A stretch of 48,928 bases of DNA from Methanolobus sp. GTDB taxonomy: Archaea > Halobacteriota > Methanosarcinia > Methanosarcinales > Methanosarcinaceae. This document shows, piece after piece, positions 35,153-40,152 of the stretch. The translations under genes were made by a program, and so were the position numbers. How positions within the stretch are numbered: the first letter of the stretch is position 1; each line of letters begins with the position of its first letter. The DNA lies in contig NZ_JADQBY010000027.1 in the NCBI RefSeq assembly GCF_016278385.1, positions 1-48,928 of the forward strand, given 5' to 3'. Under the pieces are notes generated by a model. It was not told the DNA's origin. It saw nothing but the letters and a program-made list of their open reading frames with translations, and ran no database searches.

Positions 35153-35998
35153 ATGAACATATTACATATTTCGGATATGCATTTCGGTCCTCGTCACTGG
35201 GATGGAGACGATCAAATTCTGCTTGATATGATCAATTCGTTTGATGCTGACATCGTAATCAACACAGGGGACAATACAACAGATGGCATGGAAGATGAAT
35301 GTGCTGAAGCAGGCCGTTTCCTAAAAGGAATAAAGTGCAAAAATGTAATCTCTACTTTGGGCAATCATGACAAAAGGAATATGCGCTCCCATGAACTATT
35401 CCGGAAATATATTGATAGCTCCGAGATAATAACTATCTCCAAAACAATAAAAACAACAAAGAAAAACCTTTTTTTAAACCGGGAAATCACTAAGGTTGAT
35501 GAGAATTTTACCGATCTGAATTTCATTAAATCTATTTCGATTACTGGAAAAAAGGTATTAATTCTCAGCATCGATACCGCTGAACTATATAGTGATGAAG
35601 GGTATGTTGAAAAAGAGATGCTAAATGCTGTTTCAAAAGAAATTGAACAGCTAGAATATGACCTGCTTTTGTTGATTACCCATTATTCTATTTTGGGTAC
35701 AGATGAGCTTCCCCTACAAAATTCCGCTGCACTTATTGATTTTGTACAAAAACATAAAATCGAATACGTTTTTTGCGGTCATACTCACGAACTGGAAATT
35801 ATGCAAGCCAATGATCTATACCAAGGTCATTCATTTATTCATTCTATGTGTGGCAGTTTATCCTCTAGCAATCATCCCAATGATGATAACATGTTCTTGT
35901 ATTATGAAAATGTGGGCAGCGAAGATATGCATATGCATCTGATACGAATCTTTTCAGAGATGGAGAGGGTACATTTCAAACACGAAATAATATTTTAG
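35153..35998 (+). CDS. Calcineurin-like metallophosphoesterase
   Basis: 281 residues with the complete metallophosphoesterase pattern: SDMHFG (Asp8, His10), NTGDNT, STLGNHD, ITHYSI and CGHTHE. It cleaves phosphomono- or diesters with two metal ions; substrate unknown. A very good AAGGAGGATTAT Shine-Dalgarno lies before the ATG. It ends in TAG. 91 bp and a new TATA box separate it from the nucleotidylyltransferase gene, so it is probably not in that operon, although it could supply a phosphatase step to it. Confidence 0.85.
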   Translation: MNILHISDMHFGPRHWDGDDQILLDMINSFDADIVINTGDNTTDGMEDECAEAGRFLKGIKCKNVISTLGNHDKRNMRSHELFRKYIDSSEIITISKTIKTTKKNLFLNREITKVDENFTDLNFIKSISITGKKVLILSIDTAELYSDEGYVEKEMLNAVSKEIEQLEYDLLLLITHYSILGTDELPLQNSAALIDFVQKHKIEYVFCGHTHELEIMQANDLYQGHSFIHSMCGSLSSSNHPNDDNMFLYYENVGSEDMHMHLIRIFSEMERVHFKHEIIF

Positions 35999-36051
35999 GG
36001 AAGACTTTCAGAAATAATACTTTTATAAGTTCCTTTAATACAGTTGACAGT

Positions 36052-36061
36052 CTTATATATA
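36052..36061 (+). promoter_or_regulatory. TATA box of the head-group cluster
   Basis: CTTATATATA centred about 33 bp before the ATG at 36090 implies a leader of only a few bases and a separate transcription unit from the metallophosphoesterase gene. No Shine-Dalgarno precedes the ATG. Confidence 0.5.
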
Positions 36062-36089
36062 CGATGAATACCAACCAATCGGATTTCCA

Positions 36090-37082
36090 ATGAATTCGAA
36101 TCACAGCAATAGTGATAATGGAGTTATAACAACCGCATTATTATTGGCAGCTGGCAAGGGCAGTCGTTTGTATCCTCTAACAAGCGACACACCGAAGTGC
36201 CTTACAATGGTTCATGAGGCTTCTATACTTGAACGACTTGTCATTAATTTGAAAAAACAAGGCTTCAAACGTCTTGTCATTGTCACAGGATATCAGGAAA
36301 AATGTATTCGTGACTTTTTAGAAACGCGTTCCTGCGGTATGACAATCGATTATATTTTCAGTCCCCTTTACGCGACCACCAATAACATCTATTCACTCTG
36401 GATGGCGCGGGATATTATTAATGAGCCTTTCTTACTTATTGAAAGCGACCTCATCTTTGATGAATCCCTTCTGGATGGTATGTGCTCTCCTGACCGAATT
36501 GCCGTTGGATGTATGCAACCATGGATGAATGGTTCCACTGTTACAGCCAGTAGATCACATCATGTTAAGAAATTCCAAAGCGGTATTGCCGGCCCTCTTG
36601 ATGAGATAAGATACAAGACTGTCAATATTTACAGTTTTTCCCTCCCTTCGTGGCATAGCATTAAAGAAAGGCTGGGTCAGTACATTTCAGCCGGCAAAGT
36701 AAATGACTATTATGAAAACGTTTTTGCGGAAATGGTAGCTGATGGCAGTCTATCTCTTGAAACAGTATCATTTGATGGCAAGCGATGGTACGAAATAGAC
36801 ACAATTGCAGACCTTGCAAAAGCTGAGAAACTATTTTCAGCAGACAAATATGAAACGATAATTCCTTACAATATCATGCCAAAGATATCTGGAATATCAA
36901 GACCCTTTTTTTTGACACGCAAAAAACATGGAGAAAAAGCGGTTACTCGTTCACTTTCCAGCCTAAGCCCGTTGACCCAGTCTAACCCATTGAATTTAAA
37001 GGCAATTCATAAAGCCCATCCTTTAAAAAAGGAAGTGCCTTTTCTAAATCATTTAAGAGAAATAATACCTGATGCAACATAA
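36090..37082 (+). CDS. LicC/PntC-type nucleotidylyltransferase
   Basis: 330-residue sugar-nucleotidyltransferase-fold protein. The nucleotide loop AAGKGSRLYPLT is at 20-31 with Lys36; TNNIYSLWM at 97-105 is the pattern of enzymes that activate phosphocholine, phosphoethanolamine or aminoethylphosphonate as CDP derivatives, rather than of sugar-phosphate enzymes. ESDLIFD at 118-124 supplies a metal Asp. The last ~75 residues are an extra, basic, low-complexity tail. Its stop overlaps the next gene by 11 nt; in some bacteria these two domains are fused in one protein. CTP is the inferred nucleotide; the alcohol is unknown. Confidence 0.82.
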   Translation: MNSNHSNSDNGVITTALLLAAGKGSRLYPLTSDTPKCLTMVHEASILERLVINLKKQGFKRLVIVTGYQEKCIRDFLETRSCGMTIDYIFSPLYATTNNIYSLWMARDIINEPFLLIESDLIFDESLLDGMCSPDRIAVGCMQPWMNGSTVTASRSHHVKKFQSGIAGPLDEIRYKTVNIYSFSLPSWHSIKERLGQYISAGKVNDYYENVFAEMVADGSLSLETVSFDGKRWYEIDTIADLAKAEKLFSADKYETIIPYNIMPKISGISRPFFLTRKKHGEKAVTRSLSSLSPLTQSNPLNLKAIHKAHPLKKEVPFLNHLREIIPDAT

Positions 37083-38187
37083 TTACAAGACTCAAACTGA
37101 AAAATACGAATTCGTATCCGGACAACATGGTGGTTACTATCACCATGACTTTATTGATCATTCTTATCTTTACAATTTGTATTTCCCGCCAGAGGCAGTT
37201 TTTACAACTTTAAAAGATAAAATTCATGACCTTGTCCTTAACTACCCGATTGCACAGGATGCTCTTGCCGATCTCATCGGTGATCTGATCGACCAGCCTG
37301 CTGAAAGGATCGTTGTAGGAAACGGTGCTGCCGAACTTATCAAAATCATATCCGGCCACATAGCCAGCAAGTTGATCGTTCCAGTACCATCTTTTAATGA
37401 ATATGTGAATGCAGCACCATTAGGCAAAGTAGTTGAATTTCCTCTTGAATTTCCATCTTTTCAATTAGATGTAGACAAATTCGCTGATGAAGCGATCAAA
37501 GTTAAAGCAGATGTTGCTGTTGTGGTAACACCTAATAACCCTACATCGATATTAGTTCCCAAGTCCGATCTAATATCTCTTGCACAAAAACTTGCAGACC
37601 ATGATTGTATGTTGATCATCGATGAATCCTTCATGGATTTTGTGCATGATCCTGATAAGGCAACTCTGGAACATGAACTCGAACATTATCCAAATATAGC
37701 AATCCTTAAAAGCATGAGCAAAGCCTATGGCATCTGTGGTCTCAGAATCGGGTACATGCTAACTGCAAATTTAGAATTTGCTGAATCTGTAAGAAAAGGC
37801 GTGCATATATGGAATATTAACGGATTTGCCGAAGAGTTTCTGCGAATATTGCCTGATTACAGACAGGAATTTATCGATAGCTGTAAGCAGGTACGGACAG
37901 ACAGGTATAATCTATATAAACACTTGTGCACTATCCCTGGAATAATCGTTTATAAACCTGATGCAAACTTTATTTTCTGTCGCCTCCCAGATCACGCACA
38001 AAGTGGTCCTGAAGTCACGAAGAGATTGTTCATTGAGCATAACATGTACATAAAACACTGCTTGGACAAGACCCTACCCGATTCCAGCCGTTATGTTCGT
38101 ATCGCCAGCCGTACTGAAGCAGAAAATTGCAAATTAGTTGAATCGTTGGTAGATGTTATTAACTCAAATAAAGTGGAAGCACTCTGA
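37072..38187 (+). CDS. Fold-type I PLP enzyme (HisC/CobD-like aminotransferase or decarboxylase)
   Basis: 371 residues. PLP-binding features: TPNNPT at 153-158, Asp184 in IDES, Schiff-base Lys217 in KSMSKAYG and Arg225 in GLRIGY. The closest classes are histidinol-phosphate aminotransferase and threonine/serine-phosphate decarboxylase (CobD-like); I cannot tell transamination from decarboxylation by reading. Its ATG lies 11 nt inside the nucleotidylyltransferase gene and its TGA overlaps the next ATG, so the three proteins are made in step. A decarboxylase acting on serine phosphate would give phosphoethanolamine, the natural substrate for the upstream enzyme; this is inference. Confidence 0.85.
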   Translation: MQHNYKTQTEKYEFVSGQHGGYYHHDFIDHSYLYNLYFPPEAVFTTLKDKIHDLVLNYPIAQDALADLIGDLIDQPAERIVVGNGAAELIKIISGHIASKLIVPVPSFNEYVNAAPLGKVVEFPLEFPSFQLDVDKFADEAIKVKADVAVVVTPNNPTSILVPKSDLISLAQKLADHDCMLIIDESFMDFVHDPDKATLEHELEHYPNIAILKSMSKAYGICGLRIGYMLTANLEFAESVRKGVHIWNINGFAEEFLRILPDYRQEFIDSCKQVRTDRYNLYKHLCTIPGIIVYKPDANFIFCRLPDHAQSGPEVTKRLFIEHNMYIKHCLDKTLPDSSRYVRIASRTEAENCKLVESLVDVINSNKVEAL

Positions 38188-38819
38188 TGAACGATTCTGA
38201 TCAGCAGCAATCGCATCAGATAGGAATGCTTGCTTTTGCCAGAGATCTTCCAAATATCTGTTCTCTTGCAGGACTGTTGTTTGCTGTCCTTAGTATATAC
38301 TATGCTATATTAGGCAATTTGTCAATTGCGATAATTGGAATGCTCTGGGCTGTTGTTTTTGACTGGGGAGACGGATTAATTGCCCGGCGGATGAAAGGAC
38401 GAACTGATGAATATCGGGCTTTTGGCGGACAGCTTGATTCATTGATAGATATAGTAAGTTTTGGAATTTGCCCCGCTGTATTTCTCTTAAGCTATGGAAA
38501 TTTTAGTCCGTGGTTCCTGCCCGGTGCTTTCGTAATTGTTGCTGTTGGTGTAATAAGGCTGAGTTACTTCAATGTTTTCGGTCTTGTCGATAACTCGACA
38601 TATATGGGATTAGCACTTGACAACAATGTCCTTATTCTTGCCTTTATCTTTCTGTTTAATAGTTATTTCAGCCAGCCGGTCTTTACAATAGCTGTATATG
38701 CACTGTTAATGATCATAGCTGCCTTTAATGTAGCACCAATCAGAACCCCAAAGTTTTCCAGTAAATGGTTTTCTGTTCTCCTGATTTACGTTATGGGATT
38801 GACAGCTATTTACATATGA
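38187..38819 (+). CDS. CDP-alcohol phosphatidyltransferase
   Basis: 210-residue integral membrane protein with about six hydrophobic segments. The family signature is present: Asp59, Asp62-Gly63, Ala66-Arg67, then Gly80, Asp84 and Asp88. The spacing between Ala-Arg and Gly is 12 residues instead of the usual 8. The QLDSLIDIVSFGICPA segment resembles phosphatidylserine/archaetidylserine synthases. It would exchange a CDP-linked group for an alcohol on a lipid. Starts at an ATG sharing a base with the upstream TGA. Confidence 0.88.
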   Translation: MNDSDQQQSHQIGMLAFARDLPNICSLAGLLFAVLSIYYAILGNLSIAIIGMLWAVVFDWGDGLIARRMKGRTDEYRAFGGQLDSLIDIVSFGICPAVFLLSYGNFSPWFLPGAFVIVAVGVIRLSYFNVFGLVDNSTYMGLALDNNVLILAFIFLFNSYFSQPVFTIAVYALLMIIAAFNVAPIRTPKFSSKWFSVLLIYVMGLTAIYI

Positions 38820-38880
38820 TTTTCTGAACAAATATCATTCTATTTGAATCAGATTATAATTAAAAAAGGAGGTACACCAT

Positions 38881-40152
38881 ATGTATGGTTACCAGCCACT
38901 AAGGAAATGTATCTCAAACAATGATGATGAGTTAATAGTTTACGGAGCAGATTCTTTCTCTCAGTTCCCTCGCCGTGATGCATCTGTACATTCAAAATGT
39001 GACAGAGCACTTCCAATTGCACGCCATGATGATCTGGTAGTTCTACGTGGAAAACTGGATCGTGACTATCATAAATGGCTGCGTTCTCATGGGCTTGGGT
39101 CGGATAATATTGCCGAATATAATATTCATTCTCCAGAAATGACTCTTTCAGAACTGATCATTAATGATCCTGAACCAGTCAATAAAATAATCAGACGGCT
39201 TGGGAAACTGCCTATATATGTGCCATGGTTTTCAGGGTGCATGGAGGCCGAAGCTGCAAAGGCCCTTGGAGCTGATCTTTTCGGGGCTACTGAACTTGCA
39301 ACACTAACGTATAATGATAAATCCGCTTTTAAGACCTTATGTCGAAAATTGGACATATCTGTTGTTGAAGGCAGTTTATTTGACATGTATCCTGAAGATA
39401 CTAATAATTGCGTAGAGATGGAAAACGTTATCGAAGGGTATCTCTCAACCTGTGAAACGGTTATAATTCGAGGTACTATAGGCGAAGCAGGCATGTCTTT
39501 ATACAAAACAAAAGGCAATGATATTTCAGATATATATCACGAAATTGCAATCAGCGGTGAAAAAACAGTTATTATTGAGCCTTTTCTGAATGTATCGTCT
39601 TCTCCGAATGATCAGTGGGTAATTAGCAGAAATGGAACTGTGCATTCTCTTGGTATGCGAGATCAGATATGCGAAAGAGGCATGATACACATTGGTACAC
39701 TTAAAGGGGCAAAAACTTCACCCGATATTTCAAATTATATTACCAAAACATCTGCAGAAATTGTAAACAATATGTTTGAATCAGGCTATCGGGGAGTAGT
39801 AGGCATTGATTACATTGTGTCGAATGATGGTATATTTCCGGTTGAAAATAATGCTCGTTTTAATGGTTCCTCCTATGTGGGCATGATAGTAGATAACATT
39901 GAAGAACTGACATTCCCTATTCCATACTGGAAGTTTATGAAAATGAAAACAGCAGTGTGTTCATTTCCTGAACTCATTGAACGTATTGGTCCAATACTAT
40001 ATGACGGCAAAAAATCAAACTCTGTATTTCCTTTTTGTTGTGACTCGTTACCGGTATCTGGTGATTTTGCTGTTATAATGTTAGCCCAAAACATGGATGA
40101 GATTTTTAAAATGGAAGAAAATTTGAAAGAAATAGGTGTTAAATGGTTTTAA
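38881..40152 (+). CDS. ATP-grasp ligase-like protein
   Basis: 423 residues. The central and C-terminal parts show ATP-grasp features: TVIIRGTIGEAGMSLYK (ATP-binding strand-loop), EKTVIIEPFL, and the metal site FPVENNARFNGSSY with E-x-N. The N-terminal 110 residues look like a pre-ATP-grasp domain. Such enzymes join a carboxylate to an amine via an acyl phosphate. The strong AAAGGAGGT Shine-Dalgarno and a 61-bp gap place it as the last gene of the cluster. Amino-acylation of a head-group amine is one possibility. No close characterised relative was recognised. Confidence 0.78.
   Translation: MYGYQPLRKCISNNDDELIVYGADSFSQFPRRDASVHSKCDRALPIARHDDLVVLRGKLDRDYHKWLRSHGLGSDNIAEYNIHSPEMTLSELIINDPEPVNKIIRRLGKLPIYVPWFSGCMEAEAAKALGADLFGATELATLTYNDKSAFKTLCRKLDISVVEGSLFDMYPEDTNNCVEMENVIEGYLSTCETVIIRGTIGEAGMSLYKTKGNDISDIYHEIAISGEKTVIIEPFLNVSSSPNDQWVISRNGTVHSLGMRDQICERGMIHIGTLKGAKTSPDISNYITKTSAEIVNNMFESGYRGVVGIDYIVSNDGIFPVENNARFNGSSYVGMIVDNIEELTFPIPYWKFMKMKTAVCSFPELIERIGPILYDGKKSNSVFPFCCDSLPVSGDFAVIMLAQNMDEIFKMEENLKEIGVKWF

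Follow-up and report, generated by a model that had tools for sequence, protein, structure and literature searches.

In the cytidylyltransferase PntC the residues Glu104 and Glu196 contact the primary amine of 2-aminoethylphosphonate (AEP), whereas LicC, with aspartates there (D105, D192), offers space for choline (PMC6697681). FrbH, from FR-900098 biosynthesis, cytidylylates L-2-amino-4-phosphonobutyrate (PMC6697681), and Cj1436 forms ethanolamine phosphate by the decarboxylation of phosphoserine (PMC12409886, PMC11800397). Here we describe a gene cassette related to these systems in a 48,928-nucleotide stretch of DNA from Methanolobus sp. (contig NZ_JADQBY010000027.1; the whole stretch is referred to as the window). 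Its core consists of a LicC/PntC-type nucleotidylyltransferase (NTase), a pyridoxal phosphate (PLP) enzyme and a cytidine diphosphate (CDP)-alcohol phosphotransferase (CDPOH). Our sequence comparisons indicate that the cassette is a bacterial module which the Methanosarcinales gained horizontally. We consider it rather likely that this bacterial cassette produces an amino head group activated with CDP and hands it on to an acceptor in the membrane, leading from phosphoserine through an ethanolamine-type donor to a lipid.

An earlier note on this DNA had described four genes in one direction, the first three overlapping by 11 nt and 1 nt. We recovered all four open reading frames on the plus strand, with an 11-nt overlap between NTase and PLP enzyme and a 1-nt overlap between PLP enzyme and CDPOH. 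The note had missed a metallophosphoesterase gene directly ahead of them. Because this gene co-occurs with the core in the order and sits near the cassette in bacteria, the unit is enlarged to 35153-40152 with the metallophosphoesterase as its fifth gene:

35153..35998, plus strand: calcineurin-like metallophosphoesterase (281 aa); PF00149 at 64.6 bits, co-occurrence with the cassette
36090..37082, plus strand: NTase, LicC/PntC-type cytidylyltransferase (330 aa); Pfam, NCBIfam and PDB matches, motif residues and E118/E209
37072..38187, plus strand: PLP enzyme of the CobD/HisC fold (371 aa), proposed O-phosphoserine decarboxylase; profiles, Schiff-base motif KSMSK217
38187..38819, plus strand: CDPOH, CDP-alcohol phosphotransferase of a longer-spaced subfamily (210 aa); profiles, AR-x12-G, hydropathy
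38881..40152, plus strand: ATP-grasp ligase (423 aa), optional cassette member, distantly like amino-acid ligases; weak profile, E-x-N-x-R motif

Pfam, NCBIfam and the PDB agree with the enzyme classes that had been assigned to the four genes, the ATP-grasp ligase weakly by profile and with its motif intact.

Across the 186 genomes of the order Methanosarcinales we found NTase orthologues of 68-88% identity in a patchy minority belonging to three families; all other matches reached at most ~40%, and one further match was a 117-residue fragment at a contig edge. The proteins of the cassette are 68-90% identical across the order and the core proteins are under strong purifying selection; the NTase core has a nonsynonymous divergence (dN) of 0.03 and a synonymous divergence (dS) of 0.29 against its nearest relative. 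In a wider scan of 84,980 named genomes the cassette was encountered at 55-80% identity in Desulfobacterota, Acidobacteriota, Spirochaetota, Gammaproteobacteria and Chloroflexota, as well as in Gemmatimonadota, Planctomycetota, Kiritimatiellota, Coriobacteriia/Acidimicrobiales and Myxococcota (Acidimicrobiales 45%). NTase, PLP enzyme and CDPOH follow each other in the same order in all 20 fetched loci, and they stand together in this fixed order in nearly every relative with a long enough contig, from about ten bacterial phyla to the Methanosarcinales. The earlier claim that four genes are conserved together thus holds for these three, from archaea to many bacterial phyla, but the ATP-grasp gene is optional.

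All 22 archaeal rows of the concatenated tree form one clade (100/99), which lies inside a clade with rows of Desulfobacteraceae, Spirochaetota and Acidobacteriota (100/99); a tree of the PLP enzyme only was also built. Among 393 genomes sampled from the archaeal phylum, no match at E 1e-45 fell outside the Methanosarcinales. The simplest explanation is that the Methanosarcinales received the cassette from bacteria once and that it then spread or was lost, and the idea of a new archaeal pathway gives way to that of a bacterial cassette. We found no cassette relative on viral contigs, and the relatives on plasmids were all below 60% identity. In one genome of the Methanosarcina group (G171) the NTase-PLP-CDPOH block is tandemly duplicated with an ATP-grasp fragment in between (L042:5829-12151), and in another genome (G098) the cassette is closely preceded by an IS605-type transposase (OrfB, with a Cas12f-like TNB domain; L039:6725-7861).

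The window shares the exact 11-nt overlap of NTase and PLP enzyme with several archaea and with many Desulfobacterota and Spirochaetota, and because of this recurrence the overlap is probably ancestral. It is absent in genus g7, where a TAG closes the NTase frame 230 nt ahead of the PLP start, and other relatives have frameshifts. Since the g7 stop ends the NTase early, joint production of the genes, which the earlier note had read from the overlaps, rests on the conserved order instead.

Pfam assigned the NTase to NTP_transferase. Its best solved match was LicC (1jyk, over the full core), followed by PntC (6pd1). The motif GxG(T/S)RX4-8PK is present as G22-K-G24-S-R26...P35-K36, of which G22, R26 and K36 do not vary in any of the 48 cassette copies, and the motif residues together with E118 and E209 are invariant in all 48 cassette rows and in 37 of 37 distant rows. 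The cassette NTases (45 rows) form a single clade with support of 99. Six sugar-type rows are separate from all NTase-PLP enzymes in a tree in which the LicC and IPCT branches are very long and few sugar enzymes are included; within these bounds the tree and the best match fit the view that the enzyme is of the LicC/PntC type and probably not a sugar nucleotidylyltransferase. E118 and E209 correspond to Glu104 and Glu196 of PntC. (Automatic alignments place LicC D105 off by one; we anchored it on the next metal aspartate.) Because glutamate occupies both PntC amine-contact positions, the pocket speaks for a small primary-amine substrate, for example phosphoethanolamine.

The catalytic core of the NTase spans about residues 13-250 and the C-terminal tail to residue 330 is variable. 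We rejected conservation of the whole 330-residue protein, as the part after ~250 is poorly conserved and several relatives have stops or frameshifts in it. All nine g7 copies carry the TAG at codon 250. Seven of them (L037-L041, L043, L044) keep the next 76 codons open, which shuffled sequences do in less than 1% of cases, and dN is below dS in most pairs; in the other two the frame past codon 250 is lost. It is possible that the UAG is read through in g7, for example as pyrrolysine.

The PLP enzyme belongs to Aminotran_1_2 in Pfam. Its best NCBIfam model is CobD with 171.5 bits, under the equivalog cut-off of 290.55. The window's genome encodes other CobD-like proteins, one of which exceeds the CobD cut-off at 298 bits, and the cassette enzyme falls into a clade separate from them. 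In profile and PDB sequence searches it is nearest to CobD-type decarboxylases. By analogy with these and with Cj1436 we infer that its substrate for decarboxylation is a phosphorylated amino acid, with O-phospho-L-serine the most likely one. A further CobD-like PLP gene of the same genome adjoins a CDP-OH gene and a gene of the phosphatidylserine decarboxylase type (G000:C46:13043-15607). The AlphaFold models of the PLP enzyme and the ATP-grasp ligase were built on too shallow alignments (mean predicted local distance difference test scores of 46 and 44, respectively) and were left unused for fold searches.

The neighbours of more distant NTase-PLP pairs (30-36% identity; Bacteroidota, Bacillota, Spirochaetota and others) bear on the product of the pair. 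Of 41 distant loci, 15 have a LicD gene at a distance of up to 5 kb, and such a gene also lies near three loci of the cassette type (L081, L072, L092). At L081 a LicD gene, whose best NCBIfam match is Mf1, follows the pair in the place of the cassette CDPOH; Mf1 accepts CDP-ethanolamine (PMC11982090). NTase and PLP enzyme are fused in one protein in Methanosarcina (L056), at L092, L094 and L095 and on a Priestia plasmid (L156), and the fused pair of L056 has a CDP-glycerol:poly(glycerophosphate) transferase as neighbour. A presumed fusion at L089 was rejected because its two parts lie in different frames. As LicD and the CDP-glycerol transferase use CDP-alcohols, these surroundings point to a CDP-alcohol as the product of the pair. 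They also fit the earlier proposal that a PLP enzyme and a cytidylyltransferase together supply a CDP-linked amino head group to a transferase, be it LicD, a CDP-glycerol transferase or a CDP-OH enzyme.

CDPOH matched CDP-OH_P_transf in Pfam with 50.6 bits (cut-off 22). The best NCBIfam model was archaetidylserine synthase (NF038087) with 97.9 bits, under its cut-off of 240, and the hydropathy plot shows hydrophobic segments throughout the length of the protein. The motif of the family is DxxDGxxAR-x(7,8)-GxxxDxxxD (PROSITE PS00379; quoted in PMC9385802). CDPOH keeps all catalytic residues but falls outside this spacing, with AR-x12-G in 56 of 56 cassette copies. The three other CDP-OH copies of the genome have x7 or x8, so that the cassette enzyme is 4-5 residues longer at this point. 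Rhizobial and Priestia relatives share the longer spacing (the rhizobial ones judged by eye). The nearest solved relatives are of the phosphatidylserine synthase type (PSS, 7b1k). PSS uses a CDP-lipid and free serine, which is contacted by Asp62, Ser63, Asp66 and Phe105 (PMC8633023). We consider it likely that CDPOH takes a CDP-head-group and not CDP-archaeol as donor. PSS tolerates both glycerol stereochemistries (PMC8633023), and a transferase with such tolerance could allow the cassette to function in hosts of both domains.

Orthologues of the metallophosphoesterase occur in exactly 10 of the 186 genomes of the order, and 10 of 10 carry the core. In the window's genus 3 of 27 genomes have the core, and the identical three have the metallophosphoesterase. 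The hypergeometric probabilities of this co-occurrence, which ignore relatedness, are 1e-10 for the order and 3e-4 within the genus. In g7 the gene is at a chromosomal site distant from the cassette. Orthologues of 67-87% identity lie near the cassette in Desulfobacterota, other bacteria and two Methanosarcinales relatives (bacterial loci L071, L087, L088 and L096). The ATP-grasp ligase scored 21.2 bits against PF02655 (cut-off 23.2) and is LdmS/BesA-like; its profile matches the ATP-grasp ligases 7r8p, 8ynd and 8yi6, and the motif E322-N-N-A-R326 is intact and invariant. It follows the core in 13 of the 20 fetched loci; one locus has a fragment of it, and in two cases it is on a separate contig. 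Where contigs in the order were long enough to tell, we never saw it without the cassette; two apparent cases (G179, G184) were rejected, as their contigs stop inside the cassette. A related methyltransferase gene directly adjoins CDPOH in four bacterial phyla (L066, L074, L084, L093). The methyltransferases may methylate the amine of the head group, and their place beside the core in these bacteria fits an amine head group.

The proposed pathway would start with the decarboxylation of O-phospho-L-serine to phosphoethanolamine by the CobD-like enzyme, for which Cj1436 is a precedent. The LicC/PntC-type enzyme, its class given by sequence, would then add cytidine monophosphate (CMP) from cytidine triphosphate (CTP). 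The order of these steps may be reversed. The second half of FrbH is a PLP decarboxylase, so cytidylylation can precede decarboxylation; the NTase would in that case act first and the PLP enzyme would decarboxylate the CMP-conjugate, with CDP-ethanolamine as the end product either way. CDPOH would transfer the phospho-amino-alcohol to a lipid alcohol, presumably archaeol here and diacyl- or dialkylglycerol in bacteria. Where present, the ATP-grasp ligase would join an amino acid or another carboxylate to the free amine, and as a guess the metallophosphoesterase might supply the lipid alcohol or trim an intermediate. The whole would be a Kennedy-type branch from phosphoserine alongside the ordinary archaetidylserine synthase/decarboxylase route, which the window's genome has, presumably in the form of a CDP-OH gene adjoining a decarboxylase gene (G000:C46:14640-15607). 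We suggest only tentatively that the Methanosarcinales carriers make an undescribed archaeal polar lipid, in which archaeol would bear a phospho-amino-alcohol received from the CDP-head-group, to which the ATP-grasp ligase would add an amino acid as a cap.

Several observations weigh against the proposed pathway. Of the carriers tested, all 16 archaeal ones and 23 of the 33 bacterial ones encode a phosphatidylserine-type decarboxylase, CDPOH has counterparts of the serine-contact residues of PSS and its nearest solved relatives use a CDP-lipid, and one cassette genome (L093) has a phosphoenolpyruvate (PEP) mutase over the cut-off while another (L064) is just under it. As the tested carriers mostly have the decarboxylase, plain phosphatidyl- or archaetidylethanolamine would be redundant. 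This redundancy would be explained either by a different acceptor, by a different finished head group or by a conditional branch, and the product may differ from an ethanolamine lipid, for example as an aminopropanol or aminoacyl form. A head group built on another amino alcohol, such as (R)-1-aminopropan-2-ol derived from L-threonine phosphate, or one that accessory enzymes finish by aminoacylation or N-methylation, would account for the retention of the ordinary ethanolamine lipid route, the more so as all tested archaeal carriers already have an archaetidylserine decarboxylase. CobD, the best family match of the PLP enzyme, acts on threonine phosphate, and ATP-grasp ligase and methyltransferases are optional additions. 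The PntC-type glutamates suggest a small primary amine, which ethanolamine and aminopropanol both fit; we regard this alternative as unlikely. The resemblance to PSS could also mean that CDPOH is an ordinary archaetidyl- or phosphatidyl-alcohol synthase working with a CDP-lipid and a free alcohol, with the NTase-PLP pair making that alcohol or a separate product. Serine synthases are its closest matches among solved structures and in NCBIfam, and the serine contacts are retained. Its constant linkage to a CTP-activating enzyme would then be pointless, however, and the AR-x12-G spacing sets it apart from the x7/x8 of ordinary members. Furthermore, LicD or CDP-glycerol-type transferases replace it at distant pairs and one relative sits in an aepX cluster, so that we consider this explanation very unlikely.

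The PntC-like NTase would equally suit a phosphonate pathway, in which an aminophosphonate (AEP or phosphonoalanine) ends up in a phosphonolipid, and on rhizobial plasmids relatives do adjoin PEP mutase. The Bradyrhizobium sp. 187 plasmid has the row aepX-NTase-CDPOH-PLP with a long-spaced CDPOH (L155:4084-8068), and a Mesorhizobium loti plasmid has aepX-PLP-NTase-PLP. At these loci an aminophosphonate would be the expected substrate and, in Bradyrhizobium, a CMP-aminophosphonate the expected donor. However, in a search for PEP mutase, prompted by the phosphonate option of the earlier note, the window's genome (tool estimate of completeness 100%) yielded no match to PF13714 and four other archaeal carriers none to TIGR02320; over all 49 genomes tested two were over the cut-off, and L093 is the only carrier among them. 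Such cells would need to import the phosphonate. With no PEP mutase in the window's genome and none over the cut-off in most tested carriers, de novo phosphonate synthesis is disfavoured, a phosphate ester is more likely in the window's genome, and a phosphonate pathway appears highly improbable. A soluble phosphodiester or natural product (a solute, a signal or an antibiotic-like compound) in place of a membrane lipid would suit the patchy, mobile distribution and the likeness of the ATP-grasp ligase to dipeptide ligases. The DIPPS branch of the CDP-alcohol family yields a soluble product, and on the Priestia plasmid the fused NTase-PLP gene has as neighbours two ATP-grasp genes, one AAC(3)-like gene and one Dxr-like gene. 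CDPOH is nearest to the lipid-forming members and not to DIPPS, and we think a soluble product quite unlikely.

Some of these plasmid loci are worth recording in their own right. L155:4084-8068 and L157:2567-7041 are uncharacterised clusters of PEP mutase, PntC-like NTase and CobD-like PLP genes, and a rhizobial plasmid (L154) carries NTase, PLP enzyme, a long-spaced CDPOH and a metallophosphoesterase. The Priestia megaterium plasmid pBM700 (L156:1811-9915) has an unannotated CDP-alcohol transferase in the same row as the fused gene and its neighbours named above, and this row looks like a small-molecule cluster.

If the pathway from phosphoserine to a lipid is correct, a complete phosphoserine-based head-group route has crossed between bacteria and archaea. 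The lipids of the two domains differ in their chains and are of opposite glycerol stereochemistry, and the cassette would be a natural test of the indifference of the transferase to the lipid. A CDP-head-group branch of the Kennedy type would be running in archaea, opposite to the usual archaeal route through CDP-archaeol. It would also give a function to the annotations 'phosphocholine cytidylyltransferase family', 'histidinol-phosphate aminotransferase' and 'CDP-alcohol phosphatidyltransferase', which are widespread among bacteria of marine sediments, the cultured Desulfogranum marinum DSM 2058 being one of them.

The cassette NTase shares with PntC and LicC the fold, the GxG(S/T)R...PK motif and the metal residues, and with PntC the glutamate pair. 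Unlike those systems the cassette has no adjacent PEP mutase or choline kinase gene, its partner is CobD-like and not a class V AEP transaminase, and its product would go to a CDP-OH transferase. The Kennedy (CDP-ethanolamine) pathway of eukaryotes and bacteria likewise activates a head group with CTP and transfers it to a lipid alcohol. There the head group comes from ethanolamine and a kinase, whereas the cassette would draw on phosphoserine and its transferase is PssA-like and not CEPT1-like; none of the four genes is an ethanolamine or choline kinase, although no kinase search was made. With the archaetidylserine synthase/decarboxylase route the cassette shares the CDP-alcohol transferase superfamily, but that route proceeds via CDP-archaeol and a free alcohol and has no head-group cytidylyltransferase. 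Cj1436 of the Campylobacter capsule pathway, likened here by reaction and not by sequence, makes ethanolamine phosphate from phosphoserine as proposed for the PLP enzyme, yet its product amidates glucuronic acid without CTP activation. Compared by description, FrbH also pairs a cytidylyltransferase with a PLP enzyme as one functional unit on a phospho-type amino acid, the two being adjacent in the window and fused in distant members; in contrast to FrbH, the cassette mostly has two separate genes, lacks a PEP mutase and continues with a membrane CDP-alcohol transferase. What is new is a variant of the LicC/PntC/FrbH logic carried on a mobile bacterial cassette.

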